Shown piece after piece: positions 31,946-43,638 of a DNA stretch of 64,000 bases (positions are counted from its first letter, which is position 1; each line of letters begins with the position of its first letter). A program made the translations under genes and the position numbers. The notes beneath the pieces are model-generated. The model saw nothing but the letters and a program-made list of their open reading frames with translations, ran no database searches and had not been told where the DNA came from. The DNA is taken from positions 62,001 to 126,000 of the forward strand of contig JAEINS010000006.1 of NCBI GenBank assembly GCA_016342755.1, given 5' to 3'. Source of the DNA: Melioribacteraceae bacterium (GTDB lineage Bacteria; Bacteroidota; Ignavibacteria; Ignavibacteriales; Melioribacteraceae).

Positions 31946-32013
31946 GTTAGAGATGACATCTTTTAAAAAGATGTCATCTCTCTGTTGTTTAAAGTAAGAA
32001 TTGTTATTCCGGT
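31946..32013. repeat. Palindrome-bearing direct repeat, copy 1
   Basis: Copy 1 of a ~60-68 bp unit: GTTAGAGATGACATC, a palindrome (31949-31981, AGAGATGACATCTTTT meeting its complement), and a tail AAGAATTGTTATTCCGGT. Copy 2 is at 32185-32244. Together they flank the GTCAT-type element at 32041-32170. Confidence 0.8.
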
Positions 32014-32040
32014 ATTCTTCTCCATTACGGTCTTGCTATT

Positions 32041-32170
32041 AATCTGTCATTTCGAAATGAGCGTAGCGATTGAGAAATCTTTTCTTTCAAGATCCCTCAC
32101 GGAAAAGAAGTTCGGGATGACATGCAAAAACGTCATTCAGAGGAACGAAGCAACGAAAGAATCCCAACAG
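32041..32170. repeat. GTCAT-type dispersed intergenic repeat
   Basis: The stretch opens TGTCATTTCGAAATGAGCGT and ends near TTCGGGATGACA, so its ends are roughly inverted (GTCATTTCG / CGGGATGAC). A second module, CGTCATTCAGAGGAACGAAG, follows after a short spacer. The inner segment GATCCCTCAC...GGGATGACA is shared with the reverse copy at 25221-25250. Elements of this look are scattered between genes in many Bacteroidota-related genomes (from memory). A short open frame across it is repeat-derived and not a gene. Confidence 0.78.
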
Positions 32171-32184
32171 TAAAAGGTTAAGCC

Positions 32185-32244
32185 GTTAGAGATAACATCT
32201 TTTTAAAAGATGTCATTTCTCTATGTAAGAATAATCATTCCGGT
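32185..32244. repeat. Palindrome-bearing direct repeat, copy 2
   Basis: This diverged copy of the 31946-32013 unit keeps GTTAGAGAT.ACATCTTTTT, the facing AAAAGATGTCAT arm, CTCTNTG, TAAGAAT and CATTCCGGT. The palindrome arms now carry mismatches, so this copy appears older or less constrained than copy 1. Confidence 0.78.
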
Positions 32245-32253
32245 GTAGCTTAA

Positions 32254-33498
32254 TTACCATTTAATCTGACTTGGATCAATTTTTTCAAGTTGAACAAGTT
32301 CGGTAGAAAGAACTTCTCTATTAAATCCGGTTGACTTAAAAATGACATAAAAATGTTTTGGAAACTCGCCAAACTTTTCTTCAAACTTAAGTTTAAGTTT
32401 TTCCAGAGAACTTTCTTCAGTAATATATTTAATAGTTCCAACAGATCCTGTGGCATAAAAACTAGCGATAATTAGAATTGTATTATTATTTGGTCCCGGA
32501 ATTTTTATAAAAGCAGAATAATCAATATGATCAAATGCCGGTATTCCCGTCCTTTTATATTCAACAACAGAATCTTTGCTGCTGAAATTTGCAATTGTTA
32601 AGGTCTCATCTCCAATAATATTGTAACTCATTCCAAGATCTTTTATTACCGGATCAAGTAAACCGAGAGTCCAGAAAGAGCCGAGAAAAACAATATCGTT
32701 GGCTTTTATATCGTTCGAATTTAAAGTTGAAGCGCTGTTAATCCTATATTCAATATTATTCTCGTGCATTATTTTAACAAGATGTGGCAGAGGCCAGACG
32801 GCTGCCTGATTAAAAAATGAGAATGGAAGTTTTTTATATGAATCTCTTTCGCTGTCTTCCGACTTAAATTTTTCGAATTCTTCTTCACGATTTATTTCAG
32901 AATTACGATACATTTTTCTTATTGATTTTGTTTTAAACTCACTGAAATCGCTGTAATAAAGAAAATCATCGCCGAGCGAAATAATTGTATTTTTATCTGC
33001 TTTAATAAAATCGGAATAAATGTTTAAAGCAACAGCAGAAGAAGTCAGATCATTTTGATTTTTTAACTGAGCGGGAATTTTAAAGATCAAATAAATAATT
33101 ATGATTATTAAAAGCGTGATAATTGAAATTAAAATTAGATAAGGATTTTTAACTTTGTCTTTTAAGTTCTCTTTCGAATAATTAAAGAATTCAACCTCAT
33201 AATGCCCTTTGGGTATTTTAACCCTGAGTTTTGTCCGTTTTCCCATATTTTGGTAATAACGTTCTAATTTTTTTCTGAGATTATAAACCGAGACACGGAC
33301 AATTGTATCTTCGTTTGGATTAAAACCGGAGTCTTTATTAAAAACATCAATCGCTATAGAAAATTCTGAAGGGCTTGTATTGTTGATCGAACATTCAATT
33401 AGGTATGTAAGCAGCTTGCAATTTAGTTTTGAATTAGCAAAACTTTTGCTTTTTAATATTTCTTCTAATATGTGTTTTTTTGTTGAATTATCAATCAT
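32254..33498 (-). CDS. CadC/ToxR-like membrane-anchored winged-helix regulator of the glycan locus
   Basis: A 414-residue one-component regulator. Residues 1-103 are a winged-helix DNA-binding domain: the recognition-helix area reads EDTIVRVSVYNLRKKLERYY and the wing reads KIPKGHYEVEF, which parallels the LRKKL...GxGY pattern of the OmpR/CadC C-terminal effector domain. One membrane helix follows (119-139, LILISIITLLIIIIIYLIF). Residues ~145-414 are a periplasmic sensor of a kind I do not recognise. The same N-terminal domain type is known from acidobacterial signalling proteins (from memory). It is divergent from the TonB receptor gene, with phased repeats between them, so it probably controls that locus in response to a periplasmic glycan. 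Confidence 0.75.
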   Translation of the reverse strand: MIDNSTKKHILEEILKSKSFANSKLNCKLLTYLIECSINNTSPSEFSIAIDVFNKDSGFNPNEDTIVRVSVYNLRKKLERYYQNMGKRTKLRVKIPKGHYEVEFFNYSKENLKDKVKNPYLILISIITLLIIIIIYLIFKIPAQLKNQNDLTSSAVALNIYSDFIKADKNTIISLGDDFLYYSDFSEFKTKSIRKMYRNSEINREEEFEKFKSEDSERDSYKKLPFSFFNQAAVWPLPHLVKIMHENNIEYRINSASTLNSNDIKANDIVFLGSFWTLGLLDPVIKDLGMSYNIIGDETLTIANFSSKDSVVEYKRTGIPAFDHIDYSAFIKIPGPNNNTILIIASFYATGSVGTIKYITEESSLEKLKLKFEEKFGEFPKHFYVIFKSTGFNREVLSTELVQLEKIDPSQIKW

Positions 33499-33600
33499 AA
33501 ATTTTTTGAACCTAAGAAATATAAAAATAAGATAAAAATTGTAATATTACAAAATAAATAGAGCTTTCAAATTATTAGTAAATTGACCGAAAAGAAGAGA

Positions 33601-33667
33601 TTTAACAGTTAAATTAACGGTATAATTCACCGTTTTTCACCATTTTTAACTGTTTTCCGCCATTTGC
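33601..33667. promoter_or_regulatory. Phased repeat array, probable operator of the glycan locus
   Basis: Three TTAACNGT sites (33602, 33614, 33646) lie here, the first within a perfect 13-bp palindrome TTTAACAGTTAAA (33601-33613). Four contiguous 10-bp imperfect repeats follow at 33628-33667 (CACCGTTTTT, CACCATTTTT, AACTGTTTTC, CGCCATTTGC). Nested inverted repeats are AACGGT/ACCGTT (33616-33621, 33629-33634) and AACAGTTAAA/TTTAACTGTT (33604-33613, 33645-33654). Such 10-bp phasing suits OmpR/CadC-type regulators. A TATAAT lies at 33691-33696. Confidence 0.6.
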
Positions 33668-33760
33668 ATAAGTTATACTTGCCCCAGAAATATAATTCGC
33701 TTAGTCCAGAAATAATTAAACATTTAAGCAAAAAAAATTAAATAGAAGGTGATAAGTAAT

Positions 33761-36691
33761 ATGAAATGGCCAAAACTAACATACGCTTTTTTTCTAATCG
33801 TTTTATTCATTTTTCAAAATTTAACTATTGCCCAGAGTATATCCGGGAAAATATCGGACAAAGAAACGGGTGAAGTTTTAATAGGCAGTAATGTTATGTT
33901 AATTGGAACTTCTATTGGTGCCGCATCCGATTTTGAAGGAGCTTATGTTATAAAATCCGTTCAAGCCGGGGAATATAAAATTAAGGCTTCTTTTCTTGGA
34001 TACAAACCTCTTATAAAAGATATAACAGTTGTAGAAGGAAAGAAAATCATTCTTGATTTTGTACTCGAATTTGAAAGTCTGCAAGGTGAAACTATTGTTG
34101 TTACGGCTCAGGCATTGGGACAAAAACAGGCAATAAATCAGCAGTTATCATCAAAGAACATAAAAAATATAGTTTCTTCGGCAAGAATTAAAGAAGTGCC
34201 GGATGCAAATGCGGCAGAATCAGTAGGGCGTTTGCCAGGTGTTTCTCTTTTAAGAGAAGGCGGCGAAGGCAACAAAGTAGTTATTAGAGGTCTAGAACCA
34301 AAATTTAACGCAATAACAATAAACGGTGTTTCACTTTCATCTTCGGATGCCGGTGATAGAAGTACAGACTTAAGTATGATTTCTTCGAGTATGCTTGCCG
34401 GAATTGAAGTCTCGAAAAGTATTACTCCTGATATGGATGCAAATGTTATTGGAGGTACGGTTAATTTTCAATTACGGGACGCAACTACAAATATTTCCGG
34501 CAAACCAATAATAGCTCTTAATGTGCAGGGAGGATATAATGGTTTATCGAATGCCCGGGAAAACTTCAAAAATTTTAAAATTGACGCGTCATTCGAAAAT
34601 AGATTTTTAGATAACGATTTAGGTCTTTTTGTACAGGGTTCTTACGAAAATAGGAATCTGTCCTCTAATGAACTGGGCGCGCAATATGATCCGATGGGAG
34701 TGAGCGAGGAAGATTATTTAATTAACAATATTTTTATCAGCGATATTTTTAGAATGCGGGAAAGAGGAAACGCGGTTTTATCGCTCGATTATAAATTACC
34801 GCAAGGAAAAATTAAATTTTCCAATTTATTAAGTACTAGTACAACGGAAACAAATAGCAGAGGTCAGGCATATTTAGTTGATAAAGGTTCAAATACTCAA
34901 AGATTTTCCGGTATGTTCTCTGAGAACACATTAAATTCAATATCCAACATTCTTAATTTTGAAAACCAGTTTTCCATTTTTGATGTTAAAACATCCTTAT
35001 CACATTCATATTCAGAATCAAAAGCACCCAATTCATGGGATGTCAGATTCTCCAATACTCCTGCTAACATTGAAAAATTTGCGTCTATTTCAAATGCCGA
35101 TCCCAAAGATGTTGTAAAAGCCGCTAATAATGATTTAGAAAATACTTTACTGCAGACAATTACAGCTACCAATACATTCGGAAGAGAAAGAAGCCTTGCC
35201 GCTTCTATTGATTTAGAAACACAATTCAATTTATCAGATTATATAACCTCAACAATAAAATTTGGCGGAAAGTATCAGCATAAAAAAAGGTCGTATAACA
35301 GTAATACAATTAATGGCGATAGTTTTGGATTAGCGAGCGGTGCCGCTTTAATTGATCAGCTACAGAACAATATTTCCTGGTTTAATCATTCACCGGGCGA
35401 TAATGTTAATGTTCAAATGAATCAGTTTGTAGATCACAATTTTGATTACGGTTCATTTTTAGATGATGATTATGAAATGGTTTATCCATTAGATTTTGAC
35501 CGTTTACATGAAATGATCAATTTTATGAATAACAACTTGCTTGATGACAACATTACTTATAATAAAAATATTGGTGCCTCTTTAACAAATGATTACGAGG
35601 GAACAGAAGATATTTCTGCTGCATACATTATGGCAACAATTAATATTGGACCAAAATTAACAATTATCCCCGGTGTTAGATATCAGGAATTAAGAACTTC
35701 TTATACTGCTCCTCAGGGTTTACAGGGACCATTTCCTTTTTCATCGTACGAACACAAATTAAAAACTGTAACTGAATCACACTCATATTTTTTACCGGAT
35801 GTTTTAGTTCAATATAAACCATTTGACTGGTTTGATGTTAGACTTGCCTACACTAATACCTTATCGTATCCGGATTATGCAGCTTTAACTCCAAGAATAA
35901 ATGTTGCTTTAACAGGTAATAGTCTGGCATATAATGGTTTTAATCTTAAACCAATGGAATCTAAAAACTATGACGCCTATTTCTCATTCTACAATAATAC
36001 AGTCGGGCTGTTTACCGTAGGCGCGTTTTTAAAAGAAATGAAAGACCTGATTTATCAGTATACATTTACTCCGGCTACTTCAGACGATTTAATTGTGTAT
36101 TACCCTGACTGGGTAGCTAATAAAAATCCTAAGGCAGGTGTTAATGTTACGCGCTGGTTAAATAATTCCTTTAAAGTTGATAATTATGGAATTGAACTAG
36201 ACTGGCAAACACATTTCTGGTATCTGCCTAGTGTTCTTTCCGGTTTAGTTTTTAATATTAATTATACCCATATTTTTTCAGAAGCAGAATACCCGGTTCA
36301 GGTTTTTGTACGCGAGGGAAGACGTGTTGTTCCGGTAGATTCTTCTTTTATAGCTCCGTTATTATTCCAGCCGGATGATATCTTAAATATAACAATTGGT
36401 TACGATTATGAAGATTTCTCATTAAGAGTATCGATGTTATATAGTTCAGATGTTTTTACAGGCCCGCGTGTTTATCCGCAATTAAGAGCTTCAACAGATT
36501 CATATACAAGATACGACTTAACAATGAAACAAAAGCTGTCGTTTATTATGGAAGGATTTGAAGTCTTCCTGAATTACAACAATATATCCGGAGCCGATGA
36601 TGCCAGTTCAATTTCAGCACAAACAAGTGCGCCAACAAGAATACAATCTTATGGTTCAATGATAGAACTGGGTTTAAGAAGTCAATTTTAA
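33761..36691 (+). CDS. TonB-dependent receptor of the glycan locus (Xanth-Caul type)
   Basis: I start at ATG 33761 (GAAGGTG at 33745-33751); the product is 976 residues with a signal peptide to IAQ. A CarboxypepD_reg-like domain comes first (SGKISDKETGEVLIGSNVML). The plug then reads AESVGRLPGVSLLREGGEG, VVIRGLEPKFNAITINGVS and GIEVSKSITPDMDANVIGG, matching the TonB-dependent receptor subfamily first described in Xanthomonas and Caulobacter, which often imports oligosaccharides including chitin fragments. The barrel ends in GLRSQF, with a terminal Phe as expected. No SusD follows. It heads a co-directional run with a T9SS protein, MFS transporter, ChbP and GH20-like genes. Confidence 0.92.
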   Translation: MKWPKLTYAFFLIVLFIFQNLTIAQSISGKISDKETGEVLIGSNVMLIGTSIGAASDFEGAYVIKSVQAGEYKIKASFLGYKPLIKDITVVEGKKIILDFVLEFESLQGETIVVTAQALGQKQAINQQLSSKNIKNIVSSARIKEVPDANAAESVGRLPGVSLLREGGEGNKVVIRGLEPKFNAITINGVSLSSSDAGDRSTDLSMISSSMLAGIEVSKSITPDMDANVIGGTVNFQLRDATTNISGKPIIALNVQGGYNGLSNARENFKNFKIDASFENRFLDNDLGLFVQGSYENRNLSSNELGAQYDPMGVSEEDYLINNIFISDIFRMRERGNAVLSLDYKLPQGKIKFSNLLSTSTTETNSRGQAYLVDKGSNTQRFSGMFSENTLNSISNILNFENQFSIFDVKTSLSHSYSESKAPNSWDVRFSNTPANIEKFASISNADPKDVVKAANNDLENTLLQTITATNTFGRERSLAASIDLETQFNLSDYITSTIKFGGKYQHKKRSYNSNTINGDSFGLASGAALIDQLQNNISWFNHSPGDNVNVQMNQFVDHNFDYGSFLDDDYEMVYPLDFDRLHEMINFMNNNLLDDNITYNKNIGASLTNDYEGTEDISAAYIMATINIGPKLTIIPGVRYQELRTSYTAPQGLQGPFPFSSYEHKLKTVTESHSYFLPDVLVQYKPFDWFDVRLAYTNTLSYPDYAALTPRINVALTGNSLAYNGFNLKPMESKNYDAYFSFYNNTVGLFTVGAFLKEMKDLIYQYTFTPATSDDLIVYYPDWVANKNPKAGVNVTRWLNNSFKVDNYGIELDWQTHFWYLPSVLSGLVFNINYTHIFSEAEYPVQVFVREGRRVVPVDSSFIAPLLFQPDDILNITIGYDYEDFSLRVSMLYSSDVFTGPRVYPQLRASTDSYTRYDLTMKQKLSFIMEGFEVFLNYNNISGADDASSISAQTSAPTRIQSYGSMIELGLRSQF

Positions 36692-38631: not shown

Positions 38632-38782
38632 TAATTAAAAAGAAGTACTCTTCTTAATTGTAAAATTCGATAATTGATATTATTAATTCGCTGAAGTAAC
38701 AAATCAATATTAAAGATAAATTAAAAAAAATATTGATTTGATTGGAAATGTTGTGTCAAAAACAAAAGGACAATCATCAAAT

Positions 38783-40045
38783 ATGACTACTAAAAAAAAG
38801 CATCCGGCTTTCTGGGTTCCAAGTTTATACTTTTCTGAAGGATTACCTTTTGTTGCTACTTCAGTGGTTTCTGTACTTATGTATAAAAGTCTTGGATTAA
38901 CCGATTCGGAAATCGCGTTTTTTACAACACTTGTAATGTGGCCCTGGACTTTGAAACCTCTATGGGGACCATTATTAGAGATGTTTAAAACAAAAAAACA
39001 TTTTGTTGTCGCAACCCAGTTTATCGGCGGAGTTGCGTTCGGAGTTTTAGCTCTAACATTACCTCTTGAGGGATTTCTTCAGTATTCATTGATTATGTTT
39101 GTTATAATTGCCTTTAACTCGGCCACACACGATATTGCCGCTGACGGTGTTTATATAAACACCCTTACGCCTAAAGAACAGGCAAAGTATGTAGGATGGC
39201 AGGGAGCTTTTTATAATATTGCAAAAGTATTTTCGCAAGGAGCACTTGTATATATTGCGGGCAGACTAGAATTAAGTTTAGGAATTGTGGAAGCTTGGAT
39301 GATTGTTATGGGAATATTTGGCTTAATTCTTTTACTAATGGGTCTGTACCACTGGAAAGTGCTTCCTACCGGCGGTTCATCAACTAATGTGAAAAATGCG
39401 GGTGAAGCATTCCAAACCTTTGGAAAAGTTATTAAATCGTTTTTCGCTAAAAAACATATTTATTGGGGATTGGCTTTTATAATTCTTTTTAGAACGGCTG
39501 AAGGTCAGCTTACTAAAATTGTACCATTGTTTATGAGAGCTGCCAGAGCAGATGGCGGATTAGGATTATTAACGGCAGATATAGGAATTGCGTACGGTAT
39601 TTTTGGTGCGGCCGCATTTGTTATCGGTTCAATTGCAGGCGGATATTTTGTAGCTAAGCGAGGATTGAAGAAATCAATTTTTCTTTTGGCAATTATTTTT
39701 AACGTCCCCGATTTGGTCTACACATACCTGGCTTTTACTGTACCTGAAAACTTTTCAATGGTTTGTACCGCTATTGTAATTGAATGGTTTGGATATGGAT
39801 TTGGCTTTGTCGGTGTTATTTTATTTATGATGCAGCAAATTGCGCCTGGGCCTTACAAAATGGCTCATTATGCTTTTGCAACAGCTATAATGAACCTTGG
39901 TTTTATGCTACCTTCAATGATAAGCGGTTTTGTAAGTGATTTTTTAGGGTATCAAAAGTTTTTTGTCTGGGTACTAATTGCAACAATACCCTCATTTCTT
40001 GCTGCCTGGTTAGTTCCTTTTAAGGAAGTTTCGTTCGACGAATAA
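38783..40045 (+). CDS. AmpG-like major facilitator superfamily transporter
   Basis: I use ATG 38783 (420 residues); a GTG at 38753 or TTG at 38738 in the same frame are alternatives. The protein begins HPAFWVPSLYFSEGLPF and carries twelve likely helices, with AmpG-like motifs: MWPWTLKPLWGPLLEMF after helix 2, and FNSATHDIAADGVYINTL in the third-fourth helix region. AmpG imports GlcNAc-anhydromuramyl compounds; relatives in glycan loci carry other amino-sugar oligosaccharides. With a chitobiose phosphorylase as the next gene, the likely cargo is N,N'-diacetylchitobiose or a related disaccharide. Both directionality and cargo are inferred. Confidence 0.85.
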   Translation: MTTKKKHPAFWVPSLYFSEGLPFVATSVVSVLMYKSLGLTDSEIAFFTTLVMWPWTLKPLWGPLLEMFKTKKHFVVATQFIGGVAFGVLALTLPLEGFLQYSLIMFVIIAFNSATHDIAADGVYINTLTPKEQAKYVGWQGAFYNIAKVFSQGALVYIAGRLELSLGIVEAWMIVMGIFGLILLLMGLYHWKVLPTGGSSTNVKNAGEAFQTFGKVIKSFFAKKHIYWGLAFIILFRTAEGQLTKIVPLFMRAARADGGLGLLTADIGIAYGIFGAAAFVIGSIAGGYFVAKRGLKKSIFLLAIIFNVPDLVYTYLAFTVPENFSMVCTAIVIEWFGYGFGFVGVILFMMQQIAPGPYKMAHYAFATAIMNLGFMLPSMISGFVSDFLGYQKFFVWVLIATIPSFLAAWLVPFKEVSFDE

Positions 40046-40101: not shown

Positions 40102-42501
40102 ATGAAGTATGGTTTTTTTGATGATGAAAATAAAGAGTATGTAATTGATAAACCTGATGTTCCGGTTTCATGGACTAATTACCTTGGTGTTAAAGATCTA
40201 TGTACTGTTATTTCTCATAATGCCGGCGGGTATTCGTTTTATAAATCTACAGAACATCACAGGGTAACCAGATTCAGACCAAATGGTGTTCCTATGGATA
40301 GACCCGGACATTATGTATATATACTTGATGATGATACGGGTGAATACTGGACTATTTCATGGCAGCCGGTCGGAAAAGATTTTTCTAAGGCTAAATATAT
40401 TTGCAGACACGGTTTGTCCTACTCTAAGTTTCAATGCGATTATAAGGGTATAGAAGCAGAGCAGCTTTTGTTTATTCCTGTTGAAGAGGATGTTGAATTA
40501 TGGGATGTGAAAATTAAAAACAATTCTGGTAAACCTAGAAATCTAAGTGTGTTTTCTTATGTTGAATTTTCTTTCCATCATGTTGAAATAGATAATCAAA
40601 ATTTTCAAATGAGTTTGTATGCAAGCGGTTCAAATTATAAAGAAGGAATAATTGAATATGATTTTTTCTACGAACCATGGACCTATCATTTTCTAGCTTC
40701 TAATTTTGACCCGGACAGTTATGATTGTGTTAGAGATAAATTTATTGGCAGTTATAGAACAGAAACAAATCCAGAATCAGTAGAAAAAGGAATTTGTTCT
40801 AATAGCACAGAGCTTGGCGGTAATCATTGCGGATCATTACACAAGAAGATTAAACTTGAAGCGGGTGAATCTTCAAGATTAATATTTATGCTTGGTGTCG
40901 GGGCTCGTGAAGAAAAAGGGATAGAAATAAAAAAAAAATATTCTAACCTTAATAATGTTGATAATGAATTTGAGAAGCTTAAAGATTATTGGGATAAAAA
41001 AACATCAATTCTAAAAGTTAAAACTCCTCACGAAGGTTTTAACTCAATGATAAATATATGGACACTTTACCAGGCCGAAACCTGTGTGGTCTGGTCCCGT
41101 TTTGGTTCCTTTGTGGAAACCGGGGGAAGAGTAGGATTAGGATATAGAGATACATCGCAAGATATACTGGGGGTTATTCATACTAATCCTAATAAAACCA
41201 AGGGTAGGATTATAGAATTACTTCAGGGGCATACAAGTAAAGGTTATGGATTACACTTGTTTGATCCGGATGTTTTTAAACCGAAAGAAAATAAATTGCC
41301 CGGTGTAAAACTCCCGACTGTTGTACCTATACCGGATCCTTCAGATATAGTTCACGGAATGGAAGATGTTTGCTCGGACGATGCATTGTGGCTTGTTACT
41401 TCAGTTTGTGAATGGATAGTTGAAAATGATGAGATTGAGTTTTTCGATCAGACTATTCCATATGCTGACTGCGGTGAAGGAACTGTTTATGAGCACATGA
41501 CTAAAATTTTAGATTTCTCAACGGAGCAAGTTGGGCAAACCGGCATTTGTAAAGGACTTAGAGCCGACTGGAACGATTGCCTTAATCTTGGCGGCGGTGA
41601 AAGTTCGATGGTTTCATTTATGCATTATTGGGCTATAAAAGTATTTATCAAATCTGCGGAGAAGCTTGGAAAATATGAGGATGTACAAAAATATACTAAA
41701 ATTGCCGAAAGGGTAAAAAAATCGTGCGAAGAAGAATTGTGGGATGGCGAATGGTATTTACGCGGTTTCACCAAAAAAGGAAAAAAGATTGGTACTCACA
41801 AAGAAGATGCAGGAAAGATATTCTTAAACGCGCAGACATGGTCGGTGCTTTCAGGTGTGGCATCGGACGACAGAGCATTAAAAGCTATGAATGCTGTGGA
41901 TAAATACTTATTTTCAAAATATGGATTACATCTTCTGTGGCCGGCATATTCAGAACCTGATGATGATATTGGCTATGTTACAAGAGTTTATAAAGGGATA
42001 AAAGAAAATGCTTCAATATTTAGTCATCCCAATCCATGGGCTGTAATTGCGGAGTGCGAACTTGGCAGAGGTAATAGAGCCATGAAGTTTTATGATGCTA
42101 TTTTACCGTACCGCCAGAATAACGAAATAGAAATAAGACAAAGCGAGCCATACTCATATTGTCAGTTCATAATGGGAAAAGACCATACTGCACACGGAAG
42201 AGCCAGACATCCATGGCTTACCGGTACTGCATCATGGTTTTATACCGCGGCAACAAAACATATTTTAGGAATTAAACCTGGTTACGAAGGATTGATAATC
42301 GATCCTTGTATACCGTCCGACTGGAAAGAGTTTGAAGTTACCAGAGTCTGGAGAGGTGCAGTATATAAGATTAAAGTGAATAATCCTAATGGAGTTGAGA
42401 AAGGTATAAAATCGATAGAAGTTGATGGAAAGGTTATTAAAGGTATTATCCCAATTGCGCAGAGGGATACAGTTGTAAACGTTAATGTTGAAATGGGATA
42501 A
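40102..42501 (+). CDS. chbP: N,N'-diacetylchitobiose phosphorylase (GH94)
   Basis: A 799-residue cytoplasmic enzyme (no signal peptide). It is a full-length GH94 phosphorylase: N-terminal beta-sandwich opening MKYGFFDDENKEYVI, then a helical linker and an (alpha/alpha)6 barrel. The general acid is Asp492 in RADWNDCLNLGGGESS. Motifs ETCVVWSRFGSFVETGGR and HPWLTGTASWFY are preserved. The overall wording (HNAGGYSFYKS, FSHPNPWAVIAE, DPCIPSDWKEFEVTRVWRG) matches chitobiose phosphorylase of Vibrio more closely than cellobiose phosphorylase. It cleaves chitobiose with phosphate to GlcNAc-1-phosphate and GlcNAc, saving one ATP. It lies 56 nt after the transporter and 39 nt before the GH20-like gene. 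Confidence 0.9.
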   Translation: MKYGFFDDENKEYVIDKPDVPVSWTNYLGVKDLCTVISHNAGGYSFYKSTEHHRVTRFRPNGVPMDRPGHYVYILDDDTGEYWTISWQPVGKDFSKAKYICRHGLSYSKFQCDYKGIEAEQLLFIPVEEDVELWDVKIKNNSGKPRNLSVFSYVEFSFHHVEIDNQNFQMSLYASGSNYKEGIIEYDFFYEPWTYHFLASNFDPDSYDCVRDKFIGSYRTETNPESVEKGICSNSTELGGNHCGSLHKKIKLEAGESSRLIFMLGVGAREEKGIEIKKKYSNLNNVDNEFEKLKDYWDKKTSILKVKTPHEGFNSMINIWTLYQAETCVVWSRFGSFVETGGRVGLGYRDTSQDILGVIHTNPNKTKGRIIELLQGHTSKGYGLHLFDPDVFKPKENKLPGVKLPTVVPIPDPSDIVHGMEDVCSDDALWLVTSVCEWIVENDEIEFFDQTIPYADCGEGTVYEHMTKILDFSTEQVGQTGICKGLRADWNDCLNLGGGESSMVSFMHYWAIKVFIKSAEKLGKYEDVQKYTKIAERVKKSCEEELWDGEWYLRGFTKKGKKIGTHKEDAGKIFLNAQTWSVLSGVASDDRALKAMNAVDKYLFSKYGLHLLWPAYSEPDDDIGYVTRVYKGIKENASIFSHPNPWAVIAECELGRGNRAMKFYDAILPYRQNNEIEIRQSEPYSYCQFIMGKDHTAHGRARHPWLTGTASWFYTAATKHILGIKPGYEGLIIDPCIPSDWKEFEVTRVWRGAVYKIKVNNPNGVEKGIKSIEVDGKVIKGIIPIAQRDTVVNVNVEMG

Positions 42502-42540
42502 ATAACTTATAGCTAAGAGAATAATAAACAAGAGGTAGAA

Positions 42541-43638
42541 TTGAAGAGTATTAACTTATTATTTTTGTCAATGATTATAATTTTTTCTTCGTGTGTTAAT
42601 GTGCCAAGGCAAAATATGAAAGAGAAAAATAAGTGGGATAATATAGAAGAGGAAGCCAGACTAAGCTGGCGGGCTGTTCATTTACTCCATTATAACAATG
42701 ATAAAGCCTTGGGTGGTTTATCAAAACAAATTCCTTTATTAAGTAAAATGGGAATTAATAAAATAATTTTAGAAGTTGATTATCACTTTAATTTTAAGTC
42801 ACACCCGGAACTGCGACAAACGGATTCAACAATAACTAAAGAAGGTGCTCAGGCATTTTCAAAAATTTGCGCAGAAAACGGGATTGAAATTATTCCTCAG
42901 TTTCAATGTGTTGGTCATCAGTCGTGGGCAAAAGATACGTGGAAGCTTTTAGAAGTATATCCTGAATTGGACTTAACACCAAACGCATTTCCAAATAACG
43001 AAGGATTATATTGTAGAGAGTGGGATGTAACAAATAAGAAAGTATATGAAATTATATTCCCTTTAATTGATGAAATTATTGATGCTTTTAATGCCAAAGC
43101 AATACACGTTGGAATGGATGAAGTTTTCCTTCTTGGCTCTGAATTTTCTCCAAATACAAAAGGGCAGGATCCGGCAGTGTTATTTGCAAAAGCTGTAAAC
43201 GATATGTATAATCATCTGGTTAAAGATAAGAACGTTGAAATGTTAATGTGGGGCGATAGATTAATTGATACCGCAAAAGTAAATTATGGCGAATGGGAAT
43301 CCGCGGCAAATGGAACAGCCTCTGCTTTAGATATGATACCCAAAGACATAATTATATGTGACTGGCATTATGAAAGTTTTGATGACTATAAAAGTTTGAA
43401 GGAAAAAGACTTTTTATCAATTCCAATGTTTCTCGAAAAAGGATTTAGAGTTTTGCCTACAAGTTGGAGAGTCGCAGAAAATATGGAAAGTCTGATGTAC
43501 AGCAGCTTAATACATTATAAACCTGAAATGCTGGGACATCTGTTTATCCTCTGGTCATCGGCCAAAGGCGAAGAGTTAATTAAATATCAGCCTATGGTAA
43601 AAGGTCTTAAACTTGGGGAAAGATTTTTTAGGAAGTAA
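42541..43638 (+). CDS. GH20-like beta-N-acetylhexosaminidase lipoprotein
   Basis: A 365-residue lipoprotein that starts with TTG (AGAGG eight bases upstream); the lipobox is IFSSC with lipidated Cys18. The body is a TIM-barrel glycosidase-like domain. Its central motif HVGMDEV (His189, Asp193, Glu194) is the Asp-Glu pair of GH20 N-acetylhexosaminidases, which use substrate-assisted catalysis. VGHQSWA and the C-terminal WSSAKGEE segment also fit. It lacks the usual N-terminal GH20b domain and is short. In this locus it would trim GlcNAc from oligosaccharides in the periplasm or at the outer membrane. A related inactive or hexosaminidase-like role is possible. Confidence 0.78.
   Translation: MKSINLLFLSMIIIFSSCVNVPRQNMKEKNKWDNIEEEARLSWRAVHLLHYNNDKALGGLSKQIPLLSKMGINKIILEVDYHFNFKSHPELRQTDSTITKEGAQAFSKICAENGIEIIPQFQCVGHQSWAKDTWKLLEVYPELDLTPNAFPNNEGLYCREWDVTNKKVYEIIFPLIDEIIDAFNAKAIHVGMDEVFLLGSEFSPNTKGQDPAVLFAKAVNDMYNHLVKDKNVEMLMWGDRLIDTAKVNYGEWESAANGTASALDMIPKDIIICDWHYESFDDYKSLKEKDFLSIPMFLEKGFRVLPTSWRVAENMESLMYSSLIHYKPEMLGHLFILWSSAKGEELIKYQPMVKGLKLGERFFRK

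Follow-up and report, generated by a model that had tools for sequence, protein, structure and literature searches.

A candidate operator of five direct half-sites between a membrane-anchored regulator and a TonB-dependent receptor in Melioribacteraceae

Introduction

Polysaccharide utilisation loci of the Bacteroidota combine a local regulator, either SusR or a hybrid two-component protein, with a TonB-dependent receptor and glycan enzymes. The locus described here likewise features a local regulator adjoining a TonB-dependent receptor and glycan enzymes, but the regulator is a predicted winged-helix protein with one putative transmembrane segment rather than SusR or a hybrid sensor kinase.

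Winged-helix domains of the OmpR/PhoB family bind head-to-tail to operators composed of two to five direct half-sites, spaced by approximately one helical turn. For instance, PHO boxes consist of two 11-nt direct repeats (PMC4415409), ArcA sites contain two to five direct elements that are mostly 11 bp apart (PMC3798270), and KdpE half-sites read TTTATA and TTTACA (PMC3264566). The array reported here shares the number, the spacing by about one helical turn and the head-to-tail order of the units, and its TTCAC/TTTAC half-sites resemble the TTTACA half-site of KdpE. It differs in the exact distances, 12/12/10/10 bp, where PHO and ArcA boxes have 11 bp. Moreover, OmpR/PhoB regulators are phosphorylated two-component proteins, whereas the regulator encoded next to the array has a predicted transmembrane segment of its own and an outer domain.

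In the latter respect the protein is similar to CadC/ToxR-like regulators. Like them it lies beside a transport operon, and it is predicted to have an N-terminal winged-helix domain, one transmembrane segment and a C-terminal outer domain. CadC sites, however, are reported to be head-to-head, with few specific contacts, while the units described here are direct and strongly conserved. A preliminary description of this DNA had invoked the binding of OmpR/CadC proteins to direct repeats; the analogy is apt for direct repeats of the OmpR/PhoB/ArcA/KdpE type, but not for CadC, for which head-to-head TTAxxxxT sites have been reported (PMC5430869).

Results

The window, i.e. the whole 64-kb stretch of DNA analysed, contains an intergenic region (33499-33760) flanked by the regulator gene on the minus strand and by the TonB-dependent receptor gene on the plus strand. 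This region hosts an array of five TT(A/C)AC-N-GT half-sites, called U1 to U5, which spans positions 33602-33653. The distances between the C residues of consecutive half-sites are 12, 12, 10 and 10 bp in the window (Table 1).

Table 1. Features of the regulator-receptor locus (positions in the window)
Feature	Position	Strand	Remarks
Membrane-anchored regulator	32254..33498	-	414 aa; no Pfam/NCBIfam family above cut-off
Candidate weak promoter of the regulator, ATTACA-16-TATATT	33518..33545	-	seen in the window; not above shuffle expectation
Half-site U1, TTAACAGT	33602..33609	+	C at 33606; TTAAC in all five orthologues, 11-12 bp 5' of U2
Half-site U2, TTAACGGT	33614..33621	+	C at 33618; kept in 5/5 orthologues, 12 bp before U3
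Half-site U3, TTCACCGT	33626..33633	+	C at 33630; kept in 5/5 orthologues, 10 bp before U4
Half-site U4, TTCACCAT	33636..33643	+	C at 33640; kept in 5/5 orthologues, 10 bp before U5
Half-site U5, TTAACTGT	33646..33653	+	C at 33650; kept in 5/5 orthologues; stands where a -35 would be
Fourth repeat of the preliminary description, CGCCATTTGC	33658..33667	+	within the unconserved spacer (+7..+23, 34% identical, near background)
-10 hexamer TATACT, receptor promoter	33674..33679	+	starts exactly 24 bp past the C of U5
TonB-dependent receptor, first operon gene	33761..36691	+	PF00593, PF07715, TIGR01782
T9SS-sorted protein, possibly beta-helix	36839..38566	+	PF18962, TIGR04183, weak PF13229
AmpG-like MFS transporter	38738..40045	+	PF07690 above cut-off; TIGR00901 below cut-off
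GH94 phosphorylase, nearest chitobiose phosphorylase	40102..42501	+	PF17167; 1V7V 1145 bits, next sequence 541 bits
GH20 family protein (beta-N-acetylhexosaminidase family)	42541..43638	+	PF00728

The region had been described as carrying four repeats in 10-bp phase, CACCGTTTTT (33628), CACCATTTTT (33638), AACTGTTTTC (33648) and CGCCATTTGC (33658). All four are present, and no other place in the 64-kb window scores higher for four units at period 10. When the intergenic region was shuffled with its dinucleotides preserved, approximately 0.04% of the shuffles reached this score, or 0.2% if any period from 8 to 13 was allowed. The fourth repeat, however, is not conserved and is probably not part of the predicted operator; the conserved array consists of five units at 12/12/10/10 bp rather than of four units at 10 bp.

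Orthologous loci were searched for in 79 genomes of the family. In four other genomes, an orthologue of the regulator (about 60% identity) is encoded beside a receptor, and the corresponding loci, together with the window, are referred to as the five orthologues; a contig scan with a single protein query had retrieved only one of them. The half-sites of the five loci read TTAAC, TTAAC and three times TT(A/C)AC, at C-to-C distances of 11-12, 12, 10 and 10 bp. A -10 hexamer, either TATACT, TACAAT or TATAAT, is located exactly 24 bp past the C of the last half-site in all five. Mean pairwise identity is 84% in U2-U5 and 87% in the hexamer, but drops to 34% in the spacer between array and hexamer and to 28-31%, i.e. 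to background level, in the flanks. Alignment of orthologous regions had been proposed as a check on the repeats, and its outcome is clear-cut, as units are conserved and spacers drift. The layout corresponds to that of OmpR/PhoB-type operators in two respects. The half-sites are tandem and direct, the three promoter-proximal ones being 10 bp and the distal ones 11-12 bp apart, and the array takes the place of the -35 element at a fixed distance from the -10 hexamer. Simple TTTTT runs raise the number of period matches, and repeats might arise by chance in a region with a 76% AT content. Both the array and its spacing are conserved in five orthologues whose flanks cannot be aligned, and in other families (see below). 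This refutes the explanation, to which we assign practically no probability.

The preliminary description also reported three TTAACNGT sites, which are indeed found at 33602, 33614 and 33646, a perfect 13-bp palindrome, TTTAACAGTTAAA (33601-33613), and nested inverted repeats (33604-33613/33645-33654). Palindrome and inverted repeats are present in the sequence but are not conserved features, and the window contains 36 such palindromes. The palindrome TTTAACNGTTAAA overlaps U1 in the window and U2 in three orthologues. Its shift from one half-site to another between loci suggests that this palindrome, like the nested inverted repeats, is a side effect of the half-site sequence AACNGTT. In principle, such a palindrome and the 10-bp inverted arms could form an inverted-repeat operator or a hairpin in a leader RNA. 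Both readings were rejected because of the varying position of the palindrome, the RNA fold z-score of -1.2 and the lack of any Rfam match. Furthermore, as the -10 hexamer comes after the element, the receptor promoter does not transcribe it. We regard a function of the palindromes as very improbable.

At the receptor promoter, no -35 element matches TTGACA at more than 3/6 positions at spacers of 15-19 bp, or at more than 2/6 positions at the standard spacers of 16-18 bp. In contrast, the regulator promoter on the opposite strand has an ordinary, factor-independent layout with near-consensus elements in four orthologues (TTGCAA or TTGGAA-17-TATATT), and is weaker in the window. The difference suggests that receptor transcription is activator-dependent, and the promoter anatomy makes activation of the receptor operon likely. 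The regulator could alternatively act as a repressor that covers the -35 region of the receptor promoter and is released upon a signal. U5 spans approximately -40 to -31, and a protein bound there would stand in the way of RNA polymerase. Nevertheless, the promoter has no -35 element worth blocking. Activators typically have several upstream units and an invariant distance to the -10 hexamer, here 24 bp across families, and repression requires neither. Repression by the regulator is accordingly regarded as unlikely.

Homologues in other families were obtained from 391 genomes of the class and from two further family searches. In most of the first loci examined, the divergent gene encodes a TonB receptor. 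The held-out loci were scored with a model in which the half-site and the 24-bp distance were taken from the orthologues and the gaps were slightly relaxed. With this mixed-spacing model, most loci of family f19 and three loci of family f5 reached z-scores of 4-6, and 24 bp was the best among distances from 18 to 30 bp. A fixed-period tandem scan had missed most distant loci because their spacing is mixed (11-12 bp, then 10-11 bp). When the array was chosen on its units alone and the downstream sequence was then read for the hexamer, TAnnnT was found at exactly +24 in 10 of the 26 held-out loci, as opposed to a mean of 0.53 and a maximum of 4 in 300 runs on shuffled sequences; the count was not fully blind, as some held-out loci had been viewed by eye beforehand, and related loci are not independent. 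Among more distant Melioribacteraceae paralogues, array scores exceeded those of shuffles, but the +24 signal was absent with this model. Some of these paralogue loci carry related repeats.

Two further operator dialects were observed. The sequence upstream of L015, L024 and L004 is of the type GTTATTAAC-NN-GTTANNAACAGTAATTACATTGA, is common to paralogues of different genera, and has another spacing without the +24 hexamer. A third dialect, in which the last half-site ends in TTATCTTG or TTTTCTTG and the -10 hexamer is located at +24 or +25, occurs upstream of L058, L059, L068, L066, L067, L076, L077 and L079, and is common to families f5 and f19.

Operator identity tracks the identity of the DNA-binding domain of the adjacent regulator (Mantel r 0.75, p <= 0.0002; 28 regulator loci, including L016, whose operator register was wrongly set and whose pair is to be disregarded). 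In a control region, the 32 bases downstream of the -10 hexamer, r with DNA-binding-domain identity was 0.17. The correlation drops to r 0.22 for pairs with less than 60% identity in the DNA-binding domain. Comparisons of paralogues separate the effect on the operator from that of the genome. For instance, L072 and L078, which belong to different families, share 73% identity in the domain and 75% in the operator; L072 and L055, which reside in one genome, share 73% and 62%, respectively.

The array pattern with 0 mismatches occurs at one place only in the 4.7-Mb genome, and a genome-wide scan for further sites retrieved only background-level matches with 3 mismatches. Of the other TonB receptors in this genome, 26 were scored, and none is preceded by a comparable array (scores <=20.2, compared with 26.7). 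Being unique in the genome, the array qualifies as a local, dedicated switch. Another factor, such as a response regulator of the OmpR/PhoB type, might read an array that adjoins the divergent regulator by position only. The half-sites do resemble those of OmpR-family proteins, such as the TTTATA/TTTACA of KdpE (PMC3264566), and the genome encodes six Trans_reg_C proteins above cut-off. We consider this quite improbable, given that the single array is found at the loci of the divergent regulator and not upstream of other TonB receptors, and that the operator type follows the DNA-binding domain of that regulator, also between paralogues in one genome. The preliminary assignment of the array to the membrane-anchored regulator is thus borne out by the rigid 24-bp distance, the co-variation of operator and DNA-binding domain, and the lack of comparable arrays at other receptors. 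The array is very likely the operator to which this regulator would bind.

The regulator is composed of a winged-helix-like DNA-binding domain (approximately aa 1-105), a predicted transmembrane segment (approximately aa 118-140) and a C-terminal domain (aa 142-414). The segment between the two domains was recognised in the sequence as a hydrophobic stretch, predicting a CadC/ToxR-like order in which the C-terminal domain is presumably periplasmic. The window protein matches no Pfam or NCBIfam family above cut-off and does not match Trans_reg_C (PF00486). Trans_reg_C is weakly matched by 12 of 21 homologues at E <= 0.1 (best value, 4e-4), and the paralogue at C26 reaches 21.6 bits where the cut-off is 26.2. 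Comparison with hhalign against the Trans_reg_C domains of response regulators of the same genome gave a probability of 88.6% over 51 columns, in which VRVSVYNLRKKL is aligned with VDVHIRKIREKL; the recognition-helix feature looked for in winged-helix comparisons was of the LRxKL type. These comparisons suggest that the DNA-binding domain is distantly related to Trans_reg_C, at a level below the Pfam cut-off. Since the Pfam gathering cut-off is not reached, we describe the operator as working in an OmpR-like manner and do not file the regulator under Trans_reg_C.

PDB profile searches with the DNA-binding and the outer domains yielded nothing convincing, and no relatives of the outer domain were detectable in PDB or Pfam. 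AlphaFold models of the DNA-binding and outer domains, built on two-sequence alignments, had pLDDT values of 45 and 37, respectively, and were discarded as too poor.

Three paralogous regulators (L003, L004 and L005), 26-38% identical, are encoded elsewhere in genome G000. The ORFs beside L003 and L005 appear by eye to be sulfatase-like and sodium-symporter-like, and are not TonB receptors. In the window, the interval between the stop codon of an inositol-monophosphatase-family gene and that of the regulator (31948-32222) contains recurring stretches, GATGACATCTTTT...AAAGATGTCATCTC along with an element similar to TGTCATTTCGAAATGAGCGTAGCGATTGAGAAATC, which resemble an intergenic repeat element.

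The gene order regulator, receptor, T9SS protein, AmpG-like transporter and GH94 phosphorylase is conserved in two orthologous loci, and the same order is found in two more as far as the contigs extend. No SusD was found among the operon genes examined. The succession of chitobiose phosphorylase and GH20 genes (40102-43638) assigns the receptor operon to a chitin-sugar pathway, and the association of these two enzymes with uptake genes (TonB receptor and MFS transporter) is that of a chitooligosaccharide operon. Judging from gene content, the operon likely functions in chitooligosaccharide uptake, and chitooligosaccharides are the likely source of the signal for the regulator.

Discussion

We hold with good confidence that the array is the operator through which the divergent, membrane-tethered, OmpR-like one-component regulator would bind and activate the chitooligosaccharide operon. 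The winged-helix domains of several regulator molecules would lie side by side on the array, and the bound molecules would be tethered at the inner membrane by their own transmembrane segments. A signal, probably one connected with chitooligosaccharides, would be sensed by the outer, presumed periplasmic domain. The protomers nearest the promoter, on U4 and U5 (at about -46 and -36), would then recruit RNA polymerase to a promoter devoid of a -35 element, and the uptake operon would be switched on.

This type of switch is already known, but the libraries of families that were searched (Pfam and NCBIfam) contain neither the regulator family nor its sensor. The data may define a new family of membrane-tethered OmpR-like one-component activators in the class, a proposal for which we see even chances. 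Its members would form a chain of four to five protomers on a tandem array placed 24 bp from the -10 hexamer, each paralogue would have an operator dialect of its own, and glycan-receptor promoters would be held at the membrane when on.

For a protein family that has no model in Pfam or NCBIfam, and in a bacterial group that has been little studied, the locus supplies a predicted pair of regulator and operator. As the half-site varies among paralogues and the geometry is fixed, the targets of other members may be predictable from sequence, and the operators of the paralogues constitute a natural collection from which the rules of site choice by winged-helix domains might be learned. The link of the switch to the uptake of chitin sugars would provide a concrete candidate signal for an uncharacterised sensor domain.
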